The notes beneath the pieces are model-generated. The model was not told the DNA's origin. It made no database searches and was given only the letters and a program-made list of their open reading frames with translations. A stretch of 35,938 bases of DNA, from the NCBI GenBank assembly GCA_946407675.1, contig CAMJPK010000006.1:1-35938 (forward strand), given 5' to 3'. This document shows, piece by piece, positions 24,595 through 34,295 of the stretch. The DNA comes from an uncultured Clostridia bacterium. GTDB taxonomy: Bacteria; Bacillota; Clostridia; Oscillospirales; Oscillospiraceae. Position numbers and translations under genes: made by a program. Position 1 is the stretch's first letter. Each line of letters begins with the position of its first letter.

Positions 24595-24638
24595 GGGCGC
24601 GAAGCGCCCGTTCAATTATTTGAACGTTTACGGCCGTG
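24595..24638. repeat. Clustered hairpins between the tRNA and ppdK
   Basis: Two tight perfect hairpins (24595-24609 and 24610-24625) are nested inside a wider inverted repeat, CACGGCC (24585-24591) with GGCCGTG (24632-24638). No open frame crosses it with coding character. The interval 24639-24690 holds nothing else recognisable. Confidence 0.65.
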
Positions 24639-24690
24639 AAACAGCCATGGCACGACTTTGTGAAAAATTTGTGAATCTGCAAACTTTCCC

Positions 24691-24719
24691 TTGCACTGAA
24701 TAACAATATAGTGTATAAT
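24691..24719 (+). promoter_or_regulatory. Promoter of ppdK
   Basis: TTGCAC (24691-24696), 17-nt spacer, perfect TATAAT (24714-24719). The transcript would start near 24726, leaving a leader of about 58 nt with AGAAAGGAA before the ppdK ATG. No clear operator is seen. Confidence 0.85.
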
Positions 24720-24783
24720 GCGCTGGTATTTCCGAGAACAAACCGTCAGGATTTGAGATACGAACCAGAAAGGAACGAAAAAC

Positions 24784-27627
24784 ATGAGCAAAAAGTACGT
24801 CTATCTTTTCTCCGAGGGCAACGCGAGTATGCGTGAGCTGCTCGGCGGCAAAGGCGCCAACCTGGCCGAGATGACCAACATCGGTCTGCCGGTTCCGCAG
24901 GGCTTCACGATCACGACCGAGGCCTGCACACAGTATTATGAGGATGGCCGCCAGATCAACGAGCGCATCATGGCGGAGATTATGGAATATGTCGGCAAGA
25001 TGGAGCAGCTCAACGGCAAGAAGTTCGGCGATCGGACCAACCCCCTGCTGGTCTCCGTCCGCTCCGGCGCCCGTGCGTCCATGCCCGGCATGATGGATAC
25101 GATCCTGAACCTCGGCCTGAACGACGAAGTCGTCGCCGCGATGATCGCCGGCAACCCGGACCCCGCGTTTGAGCGTTTCGTCTATGACTCCTACCGCCGT
25201 TTCATCCAGATGTTCTCCGACGTCGTCATGGAGGTCGGCAAGAAATACTTCGAGCAGCTCATCGACCAGATGAAGGAAGCGCGCGGCGTCAAGCTCGACG
25301 TTGAGCTGACCGCCGCCGACCTGAAGGAGCTGGCCGCGCAGTTCAAGGCGGAGTACAAATCCAAGATCGGCGCGGACTTCCCGAGCGATCCGAAGGTGCA
25401 GCTGACCGAGGCCATCAAGGCCGTGTTCCGCTCCTGGGACAACCCGCGCGCCAACGTCTACCGCCGCGACAACGACATCCCCTATTCCTGGGGCACCGCC
25501 GTCAACGTCATGCCGATGGTCTTCGGCAACCTCAACGACAACTCCGGCACCGGCGTCGCCTTCACGCGCGACCCCGCCACCGGCGAGAAGAAGCTGATGG
25601 GCGAGTTTTTGACCAACGCCCAGGGCGAGGACGTCGTCGCCGGCGTCCGCACGCCGATGCCCATCGCGCAGATGGCCGAGAAGTTCCCGCAGGCATACGA
25701 TGAATTCGTTCAGGTCTGCGACCGGCTCGAAAAGCATTATCGCGACATGCAGGACATGGAGTTCACCGTGGAAAACGGCAAGCTCTATATGCTCCAGTGC
25801 CGCAGCGGCAAGCGCACCGCGCAGGCCGCCCTCCAGAGCGCTTGCGACCTCGTGGACGAGGGCATGCGCACGGAGGAAGAGGCCGTCGCGATGATCGACC
25901 CGCGCAACCTTGACACCCTGCTGCACCCGCAGTTTGACGTCGCCGCGCTCAAGGCCGCGACGCCCATCGGCAAGGGCCTCGGCGCCTCCCCCGGCGCCGC
26001 CGCCGGCAAGGTCGTCTTTTCTGCCGACGACGCCGAAGCATGGGCAGGCCGCGGCGAGAAGGTCGTTCTCGTCCGTCTGGAGACCAGCCCCGAGGACATC
26101 ACCGGCATGAAGGCCGCGCAGGGCATCCTCACGGTGCGCGGCGGCATGACCAGCCACGCGGCCGTCGTCGCCCGCGGCATGGGCAAGTGCTGCGTCTCCG
26201 GCTGCGGCGAGATCGCCATGGATGAGGCCAACAAACGCTTCACCCTCAGCGGCAAGACCTACTGCGAGGGCGACACCATCAGCATCGACGGTTCCACCGG
26301 CAACATCTATGACGGCATCATCCCCACCGTGGATGCGCAGATCGCCGGCACCTTCGGCCGCATCATGGCCTGGGCGGACAAGTACCGCCGCCTCGGCGTC
26401 CGCACCAACGCGGACACGCCGGCCGACGCGAAGAAAGCCCGCGAGCTGGGCGCGGAGGGCATCGGCCTTTGCCGCACCGAGCATATGTTCTTCGAGGCAG
26501 ACCGCATCGCCGCGTTCCGCGAGATGATCTGCTCCGACACCGTCGCCGAGCGCGAGGCGGCGCTGGCGAAGATCATGCCCTATCAGCAGGGCGACTTTGA
26601 GGCGCTCTATGAAGCGATGGAAGGCCGTCCGGTCACCATCCGTTTCCTGGATCCCCCGCTGCATGAGTTCGTCCCCACCGCAGAGGAAGACATCGCGCTG
26701 CTGGCCAAAAACCAGGGCAAGAGCGTGGAGCAGATCAAAAACATCATCTCCTCCCTGCATGAGTTCAACCCGATGATGGGCCACCGCGGCTGCCGTCTGG
26801 CCGTCACCTTCCCGGAGATCGCCGCGATGCAGACGCGTGCCGTCATTCGCGCCGCCGTCAACGTGCAGAAGCGTCACCCGGATTGGAACATCGTTCCCGA
26901 AATCATGATCCCGCTGGTCGGCGAGGTCAAGGAGCTCAAGTTCGTCAAGTCCACCGTCGTCAAGACCGCGGATGAGGAGATCGCCGCCGCCGGCATTGCG
27001 ATGAAGTACAAGGTCGGCACGATGATCGAGATCCCGCGCGCCGCCCTGACCGCGGATGAGATCGCCAAGGAGGCCGAATTCTTCTCCTTCGGCACCAACG
27101 ACCTCACGCAGATGACCTTCGGCTTCAGCCGTGACGACGCCGGCAAGTTCCTCGGCGCCTACTACGACAACAAGATCTACGAAAACGATCCCTTTGCCAA
27201 GGTCGACCAGATCGGCGTCGGCAAGCTGGTCAAGATGGCGGCCACCCTCGGCCGTCAGACCCGCCCGGACATCCACCTCGGCGTCTGCGGCGAGCACGGC
27301 GGCGATCCCAGCAGCGTGGAATTCTTCCACAAGGCCGGTCTGGATTACGTCTCCTGCTCTCCCTTCCGCGTGCCCATCGCCCGCCTCGCCGCTGCGCAGG
27401 CCGCGATCAAGGAGAAGGCCGAGCGCACGAAGAAGGACGAGATCCAGGCCGAGGTCGAGGCGAAGGTCGCTGCCGCGAAGGTCGCCCTGAAGGACGCCGC
27501 GGATCGTCTGTCCACCGTCGCCGCCGACAAGGGCGCGGAGCTCAAGGACATCGCACAGGCCGGCATCAAGAGCCTGAAGGCCGGCTGGGACGAGGCCAAG
27601 AAAACCTTCGGCGAAGAACGCAAGTAA
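24784..27627 (+). CDS. ppdK: Pyruvate, phosphate dikinase with 73-residue C-terminal extension
   Basis: A 947-residue enzyme that interconverts pyruvate + ATP + Pi and phosphoenolpyruvate + AMP + PPi; in anaerobic Clostridia it commonly works with PPi-linked glycolysis. The N-terminal ATP-grasp domain has LLGGKGANLAEM and VRSGARASMPGMMDT. The phosphohistidine domain has H458 (GGMTSHAAVV) and the C-terminal TIM barrel has GLCRTEHMFF and C835 (GVCGEHGGDP). The canonical enzyme ends near residue 874, at AAAQAAI; the final 73 residues are Lys/Ala/Glu-rich and helical in character (several KD, AK and DA heptad-like units) and are not part of the fold. Codon use is strongly biased to C-ending codons, suggesting high expression. 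It has its own promoter and terminator. Confidence 0.97.
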   Translation: MSKKYVYLFSEGNASMRELLGGKGANLAEMTNIGLPVPQGFTITTEACTQYYEDGRQINERIMAEIMEYVGKMEQLNGKKFGDRTNPLLVSVRSGARASMPGMMDTILNLGLNDEVVAAMIAGNPDPAFERFVYDSYRRFIQMFSDVVMEVGKKYFEQLIDQMKEARGVKLDVELTAADLKELAAQFKAEYKSKIGADFPSDPKVQLTEAIKAVFRSWDNPRANVYRRDNDIPYSWGTAVNVMPMVFGNLNDNSGTGVAFTRDPATGEKKLMGEFLTNAQGEDVVAGVRTPMPIAQMAEKFPQAYDEFVQVCDRLEKHYRDMQDMEFTVENGKLYMLQCRSGKRTAQAALQSACDLVDEGMRTEEEAVAMIDPRNLDTLLHPQFDVAALKAATPIGKGLGASPGAAAGKVVFSADDAEAWAGRGEKVVLVRLETSPEDITGMKAAQGILTVRGGMTSHAAVVARGMGKCCVSGCGEIAMDEANKRFTLSGKTYCEGDTISIDGSTGNIYDGIIPTVDAQIAGTFGRIMAWADKYRRLGVRTNADTPADAKKARELGAEGIGLCRTEHMFFEADRIAAFREMICSDTVAEREAALAKIMPYQQGDFEALYEAMEGRPVTIRFLDPPLHEFVPTAEEDIALLAKNQGKSVEQIKNIISSLHEFNPMMGHRGCRLAVTFPEIAAMQTRAVIRAAVNVQKRHPDWNIVPEIMIPLVGEVKELKFVKSTVVKTADEEIAAAGIAMKYKVGTMIEIPRAALTADEIAKEAEFFSFGTNDLTQMTFGFSRDDAGKFLGAYYDNKIYENDPFAKVDQIGVGKLVKMAATLGRQTRPDIHLGVCGEHGGDPSSVEFFHKAGLDYVSCSPFRVPIARLAAAQAAIKEKAERTKKDEIQAEVEAKVAAAKVALKDAADRLSTVAADKGAELKDIAQAGIKSLKAGWDEAKKTFGEERK

Positions 27628-27645
27628 TCGCCCCATACAGAACGA

Positions 27646-27688
27646 AAGCACCGCATCCCGAACAAAACGGGATGCGGTGCTTCTTGTT
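27646..27688 (+). terminator. Terminator of ppdK
   Basis: AAGCACCGCATCCCG (27646-27660) and CGGGATGCGGTGCTT (27668-27682) form a perfect 15-bp stem with a 7-nt loop, followed by CTTGTTT. It lies between converging genes and could terminate both. Confidence 0.9.
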
Positions 27689-29487: not shown

Positions 29488-30531
29488 TTATTCGCTGAAA
29501 AAGCGATAGACCGTTTTCTCGCAGTACTGCTCGCCCGGACGCAGCAGCGTGCTCGGAAAGTCCGGGAAGTTCGGACTGCAGGGGTAGTGCTGGGATTCCA
29601 GGCAGAAGCCGCCGTAGCGCGGATAGCGGACGCCGCCCTTTCCGCACGGCGCCGCGTCGCGGTCCACGAAGTTGCCGGTGTAAAGCTGCATGGCCGGCTG
29701 GGTCGTGTAGGCCTCCATCCGGATGCCGCTCCCATCGCCCGTCGCCGCCGCCATCTTCCGCAGCGTGCCCGCCTGTCCGTTCAGAATGAAGTTATGGTCG
29801 TAACCGTGGGCGAGCTGCAGCTGCTCCCAGTCCGACGCGATCTCCTCGCCGATGCGCTTTCCCGCGCGGAAATCCATCGGCGTGCCGATCACACGCGAAA
29901 TCCGTCCGGTGGGCAGCGTCTGCGCGTCCCCCTCCATAAAGCGGTCTGCCCAGATCGTCAGCCGGTGTCCGAGCACGTCCCCGGCGCCGTTGAGATTGAA
30001 ATACGTATGGTTCGTGAAGTTTACGACCGTGTCCGCATCGGTCTGCGCGCGGTACTCCATCTCCAGCGCATTGTCGTCCGTGAGGCGGTAGCGCACCTCA
30101 TACGTCAGCGTTCCGGGATAGCCCTCCTCGCCGTCCGGACTGACGCGGGAGAATACCAGCGTGTCCCCTTCCGTCTGCGCGTCATACACCTGCCGGCAGT
30201 ACACGCCGTGCAGATGGTTCTCTCCGTCGTTCTTTTCCAGCGTATATTCCCTGTCGTTCAGCCAGAAGCGCGCGCCCTTGATCCGGTTGGCATAGCGCCC
30301 GATGAACGCGCCGAAGAAGCAGGTACCGCGCTCGTAGCCGCTGATGTCATCGTAGCCGAGTGCAACGTCGATCCGTTTGCCTGCCGCATCCGGCACGAGG
30401 ATCTGCTGCACCGTGCAGCCATAGTTCAAAATCGCGACCTGTATTCCCGCGCTGTTGCGCAGCGTATAGCGCGTGACCGCTTCGCCCTTAGCCGTGACGC
30501 CGAAGGGCTCCGCCATAATGGAAACACTCAT
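29488..30531 (-). CDS. galM: Aldose 1-epimerase (galactose mutarotase)
   Basis: A 347-residue cytosolic enzyme interconverting alpha and beta anomers of aldoses. The expected residues are all visible: N82-R83 (GRYANRIKGA), H108 (NHLHG), the catalytic acid H175 (TNHTYFNL), D245 (GYDHNF) and the catalytic base E312 (GFCLESQHYPCSPNF). Length is normal. It starts 15 nt after the DUF2804 gene, whose stop overlaps the GAAGGAG ribosome-binding site, so the two form a unit. No Leloir pathway genes are nearby, so the sugar is uncertain. Confidence 0.96.
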   Translation of the reverse strand: MSVSIMAEPFGVTAKGEAVTRYTLRNSAGIQVAILNYGCTVQQILVPDAAGKRIDVALGYDDISGYERGTCFFGAFIGRYANRIKGARFWLNDREYTLEKNDGENHLHGVYCRQVYDAQTEGDTLVFSRVSPDGEEGYPGTLTYEVRYRLTDDNALEMEYRAQTDADTVVNFTNHTYFNLNGAGDVLGHRLTIWADRFMEGDAQTLPTGRISRVIGTPMDFRAGKRIGEEIASDWEQLQLAHGYDHNFILNGQAGTLRKMAAATGDGSGIRMEAYTTQPAMQLYTGNFVDRDAAPCGKGGVRYPRYGGFCLESQHYPCSPNFPDFPSTLLRPGEQYCEKTVYRFFSE

Positions 30532-30546
30532 CTGATTCTCTCCTTC

Positions 30547-31620
30547 TTACCAACGGTTTTCCACATACTCGCAGAACGCGTACATGTCCTTGATTTCAAG
30601 CTGCGTTCCGTCGTCCAGCGTCACGCTGCCGCTCCACAGTCCATGCACCTGATGGGAGTGCATGCGCATGACGCCGATGTTCAGATCGGAGTGGTGGTCG
30701 TAAAACGGCTGCATCGTCAGCCGGAAGCGATCGTCCTGCGATACGAACACCCATGGTTCCATGTATTTGTCCGGCTTCGGGAAGGTTTTTACGTCGATCG
30801 GTCCGAATTTATGCGCCTTTCCGTCATAGAAGATGCAGGTCTCCGTCGCCGCCGATTCATCTCCGATGCCCCAGGTGATCTCAAAGCCGAACAGATGCCG
30901 CTTCCCCTGCGCGTCGGTCAGATACGTCGAGCCGTTGCCCCAGTACCACACCAACGAATACGGCGTGCATACGCGGCCCCAGTCCAGCACGCAAAACGCG
31001 GTATCCTTGGAAAAGCGCACCGTTTCCCCGCCGAAGCGAAACGTCCCCTCACACGGCAGGCAGTTCTGCTTCGTCGTCATGAAATAGCGGTCCGGATACC
31101 CCTTGAACGGCAGGACGGTCGTGATGTTCTCCAGACCCGGCGCGATGTCCATCGTGAAATCGCACGCCACATCGCCCAGCGCAAAGCGCACCGTGCGCTT
31201 CTCGGTCTCCGTCACGGCCTCAAAGACGGACTTCCCCACCGCCATGTGTACGCGGTTCGGCACATCGCCCTTCGGCGGCAGCACATATTTGTCCTTTCCG
31301 CCGAGGAACGGCGCCATCGTCGAGCACAGCGTTTTGCCCTGATGCAGGTCCACAAGCACCGCCGAGGCATAGCCCCCCAGCGAGATGTTGGCAAAGCTGA
31401 TCTGCGCCATATAGCTTCCGTCGGAGATCTGGTAGAAGTCCCATTCCTTGCGGCGCAGCGCATGGCGCACTTTCGTGCGGTCGTAATCAAAGACGTTTTT
31501 CCGCGCCCAGCCGGCGGCGCGCAGCGTCCCGTCCGCGGCCAGCAGCGGCGTCGGTTCGGTATACTCCTTCTGTTCGCTCACAAAGCCGCCATCCAGCCAG
31601 CTTTTGTAGGTTCGATCCAT
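30547..31620 (-). CDS. DUF2804 family protein
   Basis: A 357-residue, beta-rich protein of the DUF2804 family. It begins MDRTYKSWLDGG, contains AGWARKNVFDYDR, SDGSYMAQISFANISLGGYAS, RVCTPYSLVWYWGNG and LFGFEITWGIGD, and ends in HSHQVHGLWSGSV. This pattern of conserved Trp, Tyr and Gly is typical of the family, whose function is unknown. No signal peptide. ATG at 31618-31620 is chosen (GGAAGGG about 7 nt upstream); the frame extends a further 35 codons upstream over the promoter. Pairing with galM hints at carbohydrate metabolism (inference). Confidence 0.85.
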   Translation of the reverse strand: MDRTYKSWLDGGFVSEQKEYTEPTPLLAADGTLRAAGWARKNVFDYDRTKVRHALRRKEWDFYQISDGSYMAQISFANISLGGYASAVLVDLHQGKTLCSTMAPFLGGKDKYVLPPKGDVPNRVHMAVGKSVFEAVTETEKRTVRFALGDVACDFTMDIAPGLENITTVLPFKGYPDRYFMTTKQNCLPCEGTFRFGGETVRFSKDTAFCVLDWGRVCTPYSLVWYWGNGSTYLTDAQGKRHLFGFEITWGIGDESAATETCIFYDGKAHKFGPIDVKTFPKPDKYMEPWVFVSQDDRFRLTMQPFYDHHSDLNIGVMRMHSHQVHGLWSGSVTLDDGTQLEIKDMYAFCEYVENRW

Positions 31621-31709: not shown

Positions 31710-31744
31710 TGGACAAATCGGACAATGCGCGGTAGAATCATTGT
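31710..31744 (+). promoter_or_regulatory. Promoter and possible operator of the molybdoenzyme module
   Basis: TGGACA (31710-31715), 17-nt spacer, TAGAAT (31733-31738). The inverted repeat ACAATG (31722-31727) / CATTGT (31739-31744), with 11 nt between, spans the -10 box and is a plausible repressor site. A direct repeat GGACAA occurs at 31711-31716 and 31720-31725. The leader would be about 30 nt. Confidence 0.65.
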
Positions 31745-31773
31745 ATTAGAATATGAAAACAGGAGCGAACGCT

Positions 31774-33846
31774 ATGGCAGAAACCAAGCTGGCAGTCTGC
31801 GGCCTTTGCAGCCAGGGCTGCCTGATCGACGCGACCGTGGAAAATGACCGCATCGTTTCCGTGATGAAGGCGCAAAACCACCCGCACGTCAAGGGGGCGC
31901 TGTGTGTCAAGGGCGCAGCGCTGAAGCAGTACGTACACCACCCCGACCGGTTGACGCAGCCGCTCAAGCGCGTCGGCCCGAAGGGCAGCCGAAGCAGCTA
32001 TGTCCCCGTGCGCTGGGATGAGGCGATCAGCGCAATCGCGCAGCGCCTTTTGCGCGCGCGCGAGGAGAGCGGCGCAAAGTCCTGCGTTTTCTTTGCGGGC
32101 CACCCGAAATGGTTCCGCCGGGCGCTCGGCGACCTTGCGGCGGCTTACGGCAGTCCGAACTACGGCTCGGAATCCAGCTGCTGCAACCGCGCGCACGGCA
32201 TGGCGTGGGATCTTGTCTACGGCTGCAACCTGCGGCCTGATATTGCCCACTGCCGCAACCTTCTCATCTGGTCGAACAACCCGGCCTATTCCCGCGACGG
32301 CTCGCTGGCGCAGCTCCGATCCGTCCAAAAGCGCGGCGGAAAGGTCATCGTCGTCGACCCGCGCGTGACGCCCACCGCCGCCGCTGCGGATCTGCACCTG
32401 CAAATCTACCCGGGCACGGACGGCGCGCTGGCGCTGGCCGTCGCAAACGTGCTCATTCAGGAAAACCTCTACGACCGGGAATTTATCGAGAACTACTGCG
32501 TCGGCTTTGATGCGTTTCGCGCCTATGCCGCGCAGTTTCCGCCGGAGCGGACCGCGGCGATTTGCGGCGTTTCCGAGGAAATCATCGTCCGCTTTGCGCG
32601 CGAAATCGCCGGCGGCGGTCTCTCGATCCTGATCTCCAGCTGCTCCATTGTCCACTGCGTCAACGGCGTACAGAACGAGCGGGCGGTCATCATGCTCTCC
32701 GCCCTGACCGGCAGCTTTGACCGCCCCGGCGGCAACTGCAGCGCCCCGACGGAAAAGGCGGCGCTGAATGACAACCATCAAAAGCTGGCGCAGCGCCCGG
32801 ACATCGACGCGGACATCTCCGGCGGCGCCTATCCGGTCTGGCAGGCGCTGGTGAACGAGGCGCAGTGCATCCGCCTTGCGGACGTGATTCTCACGCAGCA
32901 GCCCTATCCGGTCCGGAACCTCATCTCCTTCGGCCTCAATCCGCAGATGTGGCCGCAGCCGCAGCGGATGCTGGAGGCGCTGGAAAAGGTAGAGTTTTTC
33001 GTCGTGACCGATCTGTTCTGGAACGAGGCGTGCGAGCGGGCGGATTACGTTCTGCCCGCCTGCACGGCCATCGAGCGCGATCAGGTCGTGCTGACCCCGG
33101 ACAACCACCTTTTCTATCTTCCCTCGCCGCTCACGCCGGGCGACAAGCTGCCGGATGTGGAGATCATGCTCCGGCTCGCGCACGCGATGGATCTGCACAG
33201 CGAAATTCTGGACCTTACAGACTTTGACGCCTATCTCGATTACATTCTCGCAACGGCCGGCGTTTCGCTCGCCGAGTTGAAGGCGGCGCCGGAAGGTCTT
33301 CCCGCGCGCGTAACGAAGGCCGGAAAGCCCTACAGCTACGAGCGCGGCCTGAAAACGCCGAGCGGCAAGGTGGAGTTCGTCTCCGGCCTTCTCTCCCGCT
33401 ATGACCGGGAGGGCTACGCCGCGCTGCCGGAATTCCGTGACTGGCGCGCGCTTGCAGGGGATCGGGCGCGCTATCCCTTCCTGCTCGTCAGCGGCGGGCG
33501 CAGGCCGCAGCTGTTCCATTCCTGCACCTATCGCGTCCCGTGGCTTTCCGGACTGGAGGCGCACCCGATGGTGTTCCTGCACCCGGACGACGCCGCGCGT
33601 CTCGGCCTTGCCGCCGGAGACGCGGCCGACGTCTCCACACCGCTCGGCACGATGCGCTTCACGGTGTTCGCCGACATCGGCGTCAAGCCCGGCGTCGTGC
33701 ACATCTATCACGACGATCCGGGCGGCAACATCAACCGGCTGATCGGCAGCGACTGGCTCGATCCGATCTCCGGCTTCCCCGGCTTCCGCAGTACGATCTG
33801 CGCTGTGGAAAAAGCAAACGCCCCGCAGGAGGTGGACAGCAAATGA
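31774..33846 (+). CDS. Molybdopterin (bis-MGD) oxidoreductase, DMSO reductase family, cytoplasmic type
   Basis: A 690-residue catalytic subunit. The N-terminal [4Fe-4S] site is C9-x2-C12-x3-C16-x27-C44. The probable metal ligand is C136 or C137 (SESSCCNRAHG), at the usual position. Cofactor-contact segments include LIWSNNPAYSRDG, VIVVDPRVTPTAAAADLHL and PGTDGALALAVANVL; the C-terminal MGD-binding domain has HPMVFLHPDDAARLGL and ends near HIYHDDPGGNINRL. No Tat signal, so cytoplasmic. The substrate is unknown; polysulfide/thiosulfate, formate, or another small oxyanion or organic acceptor are open. ATG at 31774 is chosen because AGGAG lies 8 nt upstream; ATG at 31753 has none. The stop overlaps the ferredoxin start (ATGA). 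Confidence 0.9.
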   Translation: MAETKLAVCGLCSQGCLIDATVENDRIVSVMKAQNHPHVKGALCVKGAALKQYVHHPDRLTQPLKRVGPKGSRSSYVPVRWDEAISAIAQRLLRAREESGAKSCVFFAGHPKWFRRALGDLAAAYGSPNYGSESSCCNRAHGMAWDLVYGCNLRPDIAHCRNLLIWSNNPAYSRDGSLAQLRSVQKRGGKVIVVDPRVTPTAAAADLHLQIYPGTDGALALAVANVLIQENLYDREFIENYCVGFDAFRAYAAQFPPERTAAICGVSEEIIVRFAREIAGGGLSILISSCSIVHCVNGVQNERAVIMLSALTGSFDRPGGNCSAPTEKAALNDNHQKLAQRPDIDADISGGAYPVWQALVNEAQCIRLADVILTQQPYPVRNLISFGLNPQMWPQPQRMLEALEKVEFFVVTDLFWNEACERADYVLPACTAIERDQVVLTPDNHLFYLPSPLTPGDKLPDVEIMLRLAHAMDLHSEILDLTDFDAYLDYILATAGVSLAELKAAPEGLPARVTKAGKPYSYERGLKTPSGKVEFVSGLLSRYDREGYAALPEFRDWRALAGDRARYPFLLVSGGRRPQLFHSCTYRVPWLSGLEAHPMVFLHPDDAARLGLAAGDAADVSTPLGTMRFTVFADIGVKPGVVHIYHDDPGGNINRLIGSDWLDPISGFPGFRSTICAVEKANAPQEVDSK

Positions 33847-34241
33847 GCCGCATCGTTTCCGACAATGACAAATGCGTCGGCTGTCTCGCCTGCGTCGTGA
33901 CCTGTATGGACCATCACTTCACCGGCGACGACCCGAATGCCGTTTCCTACCGTAAATACAAACCCTTCGACCTGCCGCGCGGCCTCACGCAGTATCTCAC
34001 CGAGAGCTGCCGCCACTGCGCCGACGCGCCGTGCATCGACGCCTGTCCGGTCGGCGCGATCACGCGCGATGCAAAGGGCTGGACGCATGTGGACCGCGAC
34101 AGGTGCGTCGGCTGCCGCGCCTGCCTGCACGCATGTCCCTATGACAGCCCGGTGTTTGACGCCGCGGGAAAAAGCCGGCGCTGCGACGGCTGCATGGCCT
34201 GTGTGCAGGTCTGTCCCAACGGCGCGCTGCATTTGGAATAA
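33843..34241 (+). CDS. Four-cluster ferredoxin, electron-transfer subunit of the molybdoenzyme
   Basis: A 132-residue protein with 16 cysteines in four groups: CVGCLACVVTC, CRHCADAPCIDAC, CVGCRACLHAC and CDGCMACVQVC, each followed or preceded as in DMSO reductase subunit B/NrfC-type proteins carrying four [4Fe-4S] clusters. It presumably passes electrons between the catalytic subunit and an outside donor or acceptor. No signal peptide or membrane segment. GGAGG lies 9 nt before the ATG, which overlaps the catalytic-subunit stop by 4 nt. No third, membrane-anchor subunit follows; a terminator does. Confidence 0.93.
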   Translation: MSRIVSDNDKCVGCLACVVTCMDHHFTGDDPNAVSYRKYKPFDLPRGLTQYLTESCRHCADAPCIDACPVGAITRDAKGWTHVDRDRCVGCRACLHACPYDSPVFDAAGKSRRCDGCMACVQVCPNGALHLE

Positions 34242-34253
34242 GGTGATTCATAG

Positions 34254-34295
34254 CAAAGCGCCTGACCGGATCGGTCAGGCGCTTTGATTTTGTTT
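34254..34295 (+). terminator. Terminator of the molybdoenzyme module
   Basis: CAAAGCGCCTGACC (34254-34267) and GGTCAGGCGCTTTG (34273-34286) form a perfect 14-bp stem with a 5-nt loop, followed by ATTTTGTTT. It lies between converging genes and may serve both. Confidence 0.9.

Follow-up and report, generated by a model that had tools for sequence, protein, structure and literature searches.

Soluble alpha-beta molybdoenzymes are already known as a kind (PMC7028382, PMC11574389, PMC10100899). The catechol dehydroxylases of Gordonibacter (Dodh, Cldh and Eadh) are soluble alpha-beta enzymes with neither a Tat signal nor an anchor (PMC7028382, PMC11574389, PMC12771579), and pyrogallol transhydroxylase and resorcinol hydroxylase are cytoplasmic enzymes (PMC10100899). 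In the human gut, those members of the DMSO reductase family that have been characterised as phenol-dehydroxylating molybdoenzymes come from the Coriobacteriia (PMC12771579). Here we describe a module of two genes in a stretch of 35,938 nucleotides, hereafter the window, from an uncultured Clostridia bacterium, a gut-type member of the Oscillospiraceae (contig CAMJPK010000006.1). The two genes are as follows.

31774..33846, plus strand: gene A, catalytic subunit of the DMSO reductase (MopB) family, 690 aa (Pfam domains, ortholog start, ribosome-binding site, dN/dS)
33843..34241, plus strand: gene B, electron-transfer subunit, 132 aa, with 16 Cys in four [4Fe-4S] motifs (Pfam Fer4 families, PDB relatives, dN/dS)

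The first ATG of the A reading frame is at 31753. The gene probably starts at ATG 31774 rather than with this longer reading, as suggested by an AGGAG 8 nt upstream and by the ortholog in a genome of the same genus (G002, 74% identical), which opens at an identical MAETK. A good ribosome-binding site precedes both genes, and the ATG of B at 33843 overlaps the TGA of A (an ATGA overlap). Three Pfam domains, Molybdop_Fe4S4, Molybdopterin and Molydop_binding, are found in A above their cut-offs, which places it in the DMSO reductase family, and the PDB relatives of B include PsrB and ArrB. Between the window and G002 the dN/dS ratio is 0.21 for A and 0.16 for B, indicating purifying selection, and the two are therefore not chance open reading frames. 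Frames, ligands and promoter are all intact in both the window's genome (G000) and G002. The initial annotation had read the locus as a molybdoenzyme gene followed by the gene of a four-cluster ferredoxin, and the Pfam domains, the 16 cysteines in four motifs and the dN/dS values confirm this. Judged from the sequence, A and B are a real two-gene operon. Structure prediction from two sequences gave no usable model (pLDDT 34, pTM 0.23).

The surroundings of the operon comprise the following features.

31710..31738, plus strand: predicted promoter of the operon, TGGACA, 17-nt spacer, TAGAAT (consensus scan; conservation in G002)
34254..34286, plus strand: predicted intrinsic terminator 3' of B, 15-bp stem and T-rich tail (stem and tail)
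30547..31620, minus strand: DUF2804 gene, the divergent neighbour, its start trimmed to that of the ortholog (Pfam PF10974; same place in G002)
29488..30531, minus strand: galM, aldose 1-epimerase, downstream of the DUF2804 gene (Pfam, NCBIfam; same place in G002)

The counterpart of the promoter in G002 is TGGACA-17-TACAAT, so that both hexamers and their spacing are conserved. The terminator is strong in the window but is not common to G002, where a pseudouridine synthase gene overlaps the end of B. That the module has its own promoter and terminator, as first proposed, thus holds for the window. The galM-DUF2804 block upstream of A and B is the sole micro-synteny, seen in two genomes of the genus; in other genera DUF2804 occurs with neither galM nor A in the flanks examined. 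A functional tie between the operon and this block was considered and is weak, as the block is conserved in these two genomes only. Elsewhere in the window, a 1007-aa open reading frame on the minus strand (24628-27651) has no Pfam match and overlaps a 947-aa open reading frame on the plus strand with pyruvate phosphate dikinase domains (24784-27627); the former is probably spurious.

There is no space for a Tat signal in the N-terminus of A, MAETKLAVCGLC, and the contig has no anchor gene, both as the initial annotation had noted. Searches for NrfD, DmsC and TatC in six genomes (that of the window, G002 and four others of the family) found none, while control genomes were positive. Completeness is about 85% for the assemblies of G000 and G002, and three near-complete genomes give the identical absence. 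The possibility of an anchor encoded elsewhere in the genome, which would have spoken against a stand-alone enzyme, therefore finds no NrfD or DmsC gene behind it. No Tat translocase having been detected, one would not expect the lineage to export such an enzyme, and the missing anchor and Tat signal are a trait of the organism group, not of the module. The clade of 46 sequences to which A belongs likewise shows A and B with no adjoining anchor gene in the neighbourhoods examined. The anchorless layout is normal for a large enzyme family among the relatives, which makes that of A and B ordinary. The suggestion that this layout is unusual does not survive: six genomes of the lineage lack TatC, the whole clade is anchorless and soluble alpha-beta enzymes had already been described. 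The observation that no molybdopterin synthesis gene is nearby stands, in that neither the scanned genes of the window nor the contig yielded a recognisable cofactor gene. Four MoCF_biosynth matches lie on other contigs of the window's genome, and MobA-like or MoeA-like genes adjoin the operon in several relatives; cofactor genes are normally unlinked.

The active site and the clusters were compared in an alignment of the 46 clade sequences with references. The motif SSCCNRA comprises residues 134-140 of A, counted from the start at 31774.

31798..31905, plus strand: FS0, the N-terminal [4Fe-4S] motif of A, C9-C12-C16-C44 (Pfam Molybdop_Fe4S4; column alignment)
32182..32184, plus strand: Cys137, second Cys of SSCCNRA, predicted Mo/W ligand (ligand-column alignment)
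32179..32181, plus strand: Cys136, adjacent first Cys of SSCCNRA, a local change (column alignment)
34182..34214, plus strand: fourth Fe-S motif of B, shortened, C-x2-C-x2-C-x3-C (Cys patterns of B proteins)

Cys137 falls in the column of the ligand Cys of PsrA (2vpw), PhsA, acetylene hydratase (2e7z) and NapA and of the Cys/Sec of FdhF. This column is Cys in the clade, with Ser in one relative, L046 (G034:C11), a possible change of ligand. The column of Cys136 holds S, T, A, V or M in nearly all relatives, the exception being L116. The initial annotation had drawn attention to the two adjacent cysteines. Both are present and only C137 lies in the molybdenum-ligand column; by this alignment Cys136 is a local substitution and not a shared active-site feature, and the column comparison rules out the pair as a special centre. 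Selenocysteine was also considered, since an internal TGA is reported in several relatives including a paralog in the window's own genome (G000:C3), but the active-site column of that paralog is Cys. In the window and in G002 the spacing of the fourth motif of B is ferredoxin-like; in most relatives the insert that precedes the third Cys is longer.

In a reference tree, for which PsrA, acetylene hydratase and the FdhF of the HDCR were represented by their aligned stretches without unaligned ends, 21 representative clade sequences form one group (support 99/95). The closest PDB match of A is PsrA, followed by acetylene hydratase and HDCR FdhF. The clade sits next to PsrA/PhsA, weakly (56/71), and PsrA and PhsA give the best PDB and NCBIfam matches of A and share with it the Cys ligand and a conserved Arg. 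This could suggest a soluble reductase of sulfur compounds, like PsrAB or PhsAB without the quinol-oxidising third subunit, that reduces polysulfide or thiosulfate with electrons from ferredoxin. We consider this unlikely: the sister position is not significant, A scores 274 bits against the PhsA model, for which the cut-off is 694, and the neighbours of the relatives are genes for organic acids and sugars rather than for sulfur compounds. A cytoplasmic formate dehydrogenase or CO2 reductase of the FdhF and HycB type would share with A and B the soluble layout of the HDCR, where FdhF is likewise paired with a HycB-like protein, and A scores 260 bits with the Fdh-alpha model. The cut-off of that model is 666, however, the His that follows Cys/Sec in formate dehydrogenases is Asn in A (C137-N138), and the topology test rejects (p-AU 7e-5) a tree that unites the clade with the FdhF proteins of E. 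coli and the HDCR, so that we regard this reading as highly improbable. Acetylene hydratase, the second-best PDB match, brings in enzymes of the hydratase, dehydratase or transhydroxylase type, such as acetylene hydratase and pyrogallol transhydroxylase, in which there is no net redox change at the metal and the clusters only set its redox state. In the best tree the clade is separate from the acetylene hydratase group, and joining it to the group of acetylene hydratase and the dehydroxylases is not rejected (p-AU 0.211). A B subunit is present in transhydroxylase but not in acetylene hydratase, and transhydroxylase (4v4c) is distant, matching A with an E value of 5.7e-9 over about 175 residues, and has a Ser ligand (PMC10100899). 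Such a non-redox role appears improbable to us, also in view of the flavoprotein genes discussed below. Tight clustering of A with formate dehydrogenase or thiosulfate reductase, the result that the initial annotation had named as evidence against itself, was not seen. From the tree and from NCBIfam scores under half of the cut-offs it follows that the clade belongs to none of the named classes tested, and a literature search that covered few subscription journals found no paper describing it.

G002 (isolate SIG466, a MAG of the Oscillospiraceae) is the only genome with a full ortholog of A, which lies downstream of the same galM-DUF2804 block; a literature search for the habitat of SIG466 found nothing. 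The clade, at about 31-45% identity to A, comprises 46 sequences in the tree, all from Bacillota. B is adjacent to A in 45 of them, the exception being L120, in which the contig ends in A, and the window shares this adjacent four-cluster B. A gene for a PadH-like FAD protein lies near A in 26 of the 46, usually directly upstream, and this count is a lower bound, some loci having only 1.5 kb of flank. The protein has a Pfam Pyr_redox_2 domain, and its best NCBIfam model, below cut-off, is PadH of the NADH-dependent phenylglyoxylate dehydrogenase. This suggests that NAD(P)H is the donor in the relatives, and an NAD(P)H-type FAD gene in most clade members speaks for net electron flow, against a hydratase-type reaction. 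The window and its four-member subclade (window, G002, G145 and G284; support 100/100) lack the gene, which therefore does not strictly define the clade. In a smaller tree its presence and absence require at least four changes. The conserved third gene that had been looked for near homologues thus exists among the relatives and is missing here. The absence of the FAD subunit, the shortened B and a broken related copy in G055 could together indicate a relic that is losing its function. Orthologs more than 70% identical occur in only two of three genomes of the genus, and the decayed copy (L053, G055:C42, 5650-6815) has kept no more of A than its C-terminal part, split over two frames (62% and 50% identical), beside an open B. 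We nevertheless think a relic very unlikely, given the low dN/dS of both genes and the conservation between G000 and G002 described above.

The window's genome holds a second molybdoenzyme of the clade (L035, G000:C3, 5732-11000), 37% identical, which forms a full trio with B and a PadH-like FAD protein. A CoA transferase gene comes next, and the locus is flanked by a LysR gene upstream and, by eye, an FmdE-like gene downstream. The catabolic neighbours of the relatives, from heuristic gene calls that may miss or mis-start genes, include members of the MmgE/PrpD, arylmalonate decarboxylase/Asp-Glu racemase-like, ornithine cyclodeaminase (OCD) and enolase families, creatininase, a glycyl radical enzyme and CoA transferase. 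An operon that recurs in L110, L109, L115, L116, L121 and L037 consists of two arylmalonate decarboxylase/Asp-Glu racemase-like genes, two MmgE/PrpD genes, the PadH-like FAD protein, A, B and ornithine cyclodeaminase; next to it stand a gene predicted to act in membrane transport and, in some cases, MobA/MoeA. The operon has the appearance of a single catabolic pathway with a molybdenum step, and a literature search found no paper on an operon of MmgE, racemase and OCD genes with a molybdoenzyme. In two genomes a glycyl radical enzyme lies beside the A gene (L105, 191-9297; L047, 1-4308), its scores with the nearest models (sulfopropanediol dehydratase and PFL2-like) all staying below cut-off; L105 also has a CapA-like gene, a split transketolase and an activase, the last recovered from the open reading frame listing. 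A similar soluble layout outside the Bacillota is seen on the Rhizobium plasmid pCB3090_2 (L127, 4269-9338), where the genes for a ferredoxin, an FAD/NAD(P)-binding protein and MoaA line up with that of a distant molybdoenzyme (33% identical).

On balance we favour the reading, with somewhat more confidence than doubt, that A and B encode a soluble alpha-beta molybdenum (or tungsten) reductase that is fed by ferredoxin or by an unlinked flavoprotein and acts on a small organic substrate. We infer that the two proteins would form a cytoplasmic heterodimeric bis-pyranopterin enzyme working in the reductive direction. The donor would be soluble and of low potential; the likeliest carriers are ferredoxin and an NAD(P)H-dependent flavoprotein whose gene lies elsewhere, such as the FAD protein that accompanies the C3 paralog. 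Electrons would pass from the carrier through the four [4Fe-4S] clusters of B and FS0 of A to the metal, presumably held by Cys137, where a small oxygen-bearing organic compound would be reduced, probably by removal of an oxygen atom or dehydroxylation. As A and B have neither a transporter nor a substrate gene next to them in the window, the class of substrate is borrowed from the neighbours of relatives that are about 37-45% identical. The coupling to a soluble pool of ferredoxin or NADH that was first suggested is supported as far as the enzyme is soluble and anchorless, while the donor is an extrapolation, with NAD(P)H pointed to in the relatives. More tentatively, and leaning towards doubt, we speculate that the clade represents a class, not yet described, of molybdenum reductases in the cytoplasm of Bacillota, NAD(P)H-fed FAD-Mo-FeS trios employed across many catabolic operons, and that the subclade of the window, having lost the flavin subunit or never had it, is supplied by ferredoxin directly for a reaction on a metabolite of the host gut.

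Ordinary as the layout of this one module is, following it up reveals a large set of molybdoenzymes of gut-type Bacillota, cytoplasmic and spread over varied catabolic operons, that fits no named class. The operons around the relatives offer direct candidates for study, and substrates of the clade, once found, would show how Oscillospiraceae use molybdenum.

Among the described systems, Dodh, Cldh and Eadh of Gordonibacter resemble A and B in being soluble alpha-beta enzymes with the catalytic subunit beside a small Fe-S protein. Compared by description only, their catalytic subunit has no FS0 and fewer clusters are predicted (PMC11574389), whereas A has FS0 and B four motifs. Pyrogallol-phloroglucinol transhydroxylase (4v4c) is likewise cytoplasmic and pairs a large with a small Fe-S subunit, but has Ser (PMC10100899) where A has Cys in the ligand column, and its sequence is very distant. 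PsrA/PhsA share with A and B the Cys ligand column, FS0, a four-cluster B and the best sequence matches, and differ in that A and B have no third membrane subunit or Tat signal and score far below the cut-off. Acetylene hydratase (2e7z) is cytoplasmic, with FS0 and a Cys ligand aligned with C137, but is a single subunit in a separate, supported group of the tree. HDCR FdhF and E. coli FdhH are also cytoplasmic, with FS0 and a HycB/HydN-like partner; their Cys/Sec-His motif is absent in A, and a single grouping is rejected. Phenylglyoxylate dehydrogenase is no molybdoenzyme, and the likeness to its PadH/PadI lies in the FAD gene of the relatives, which resembles PadH, and in B, which matches the PadI model weakly; the window has no PadH-like FAD gene. 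A-B, which does not group with the formate dehydrogenases, differs from the described soluble alpha-beta enzymes in its FS0, its four-motif B and its Cys ligand.
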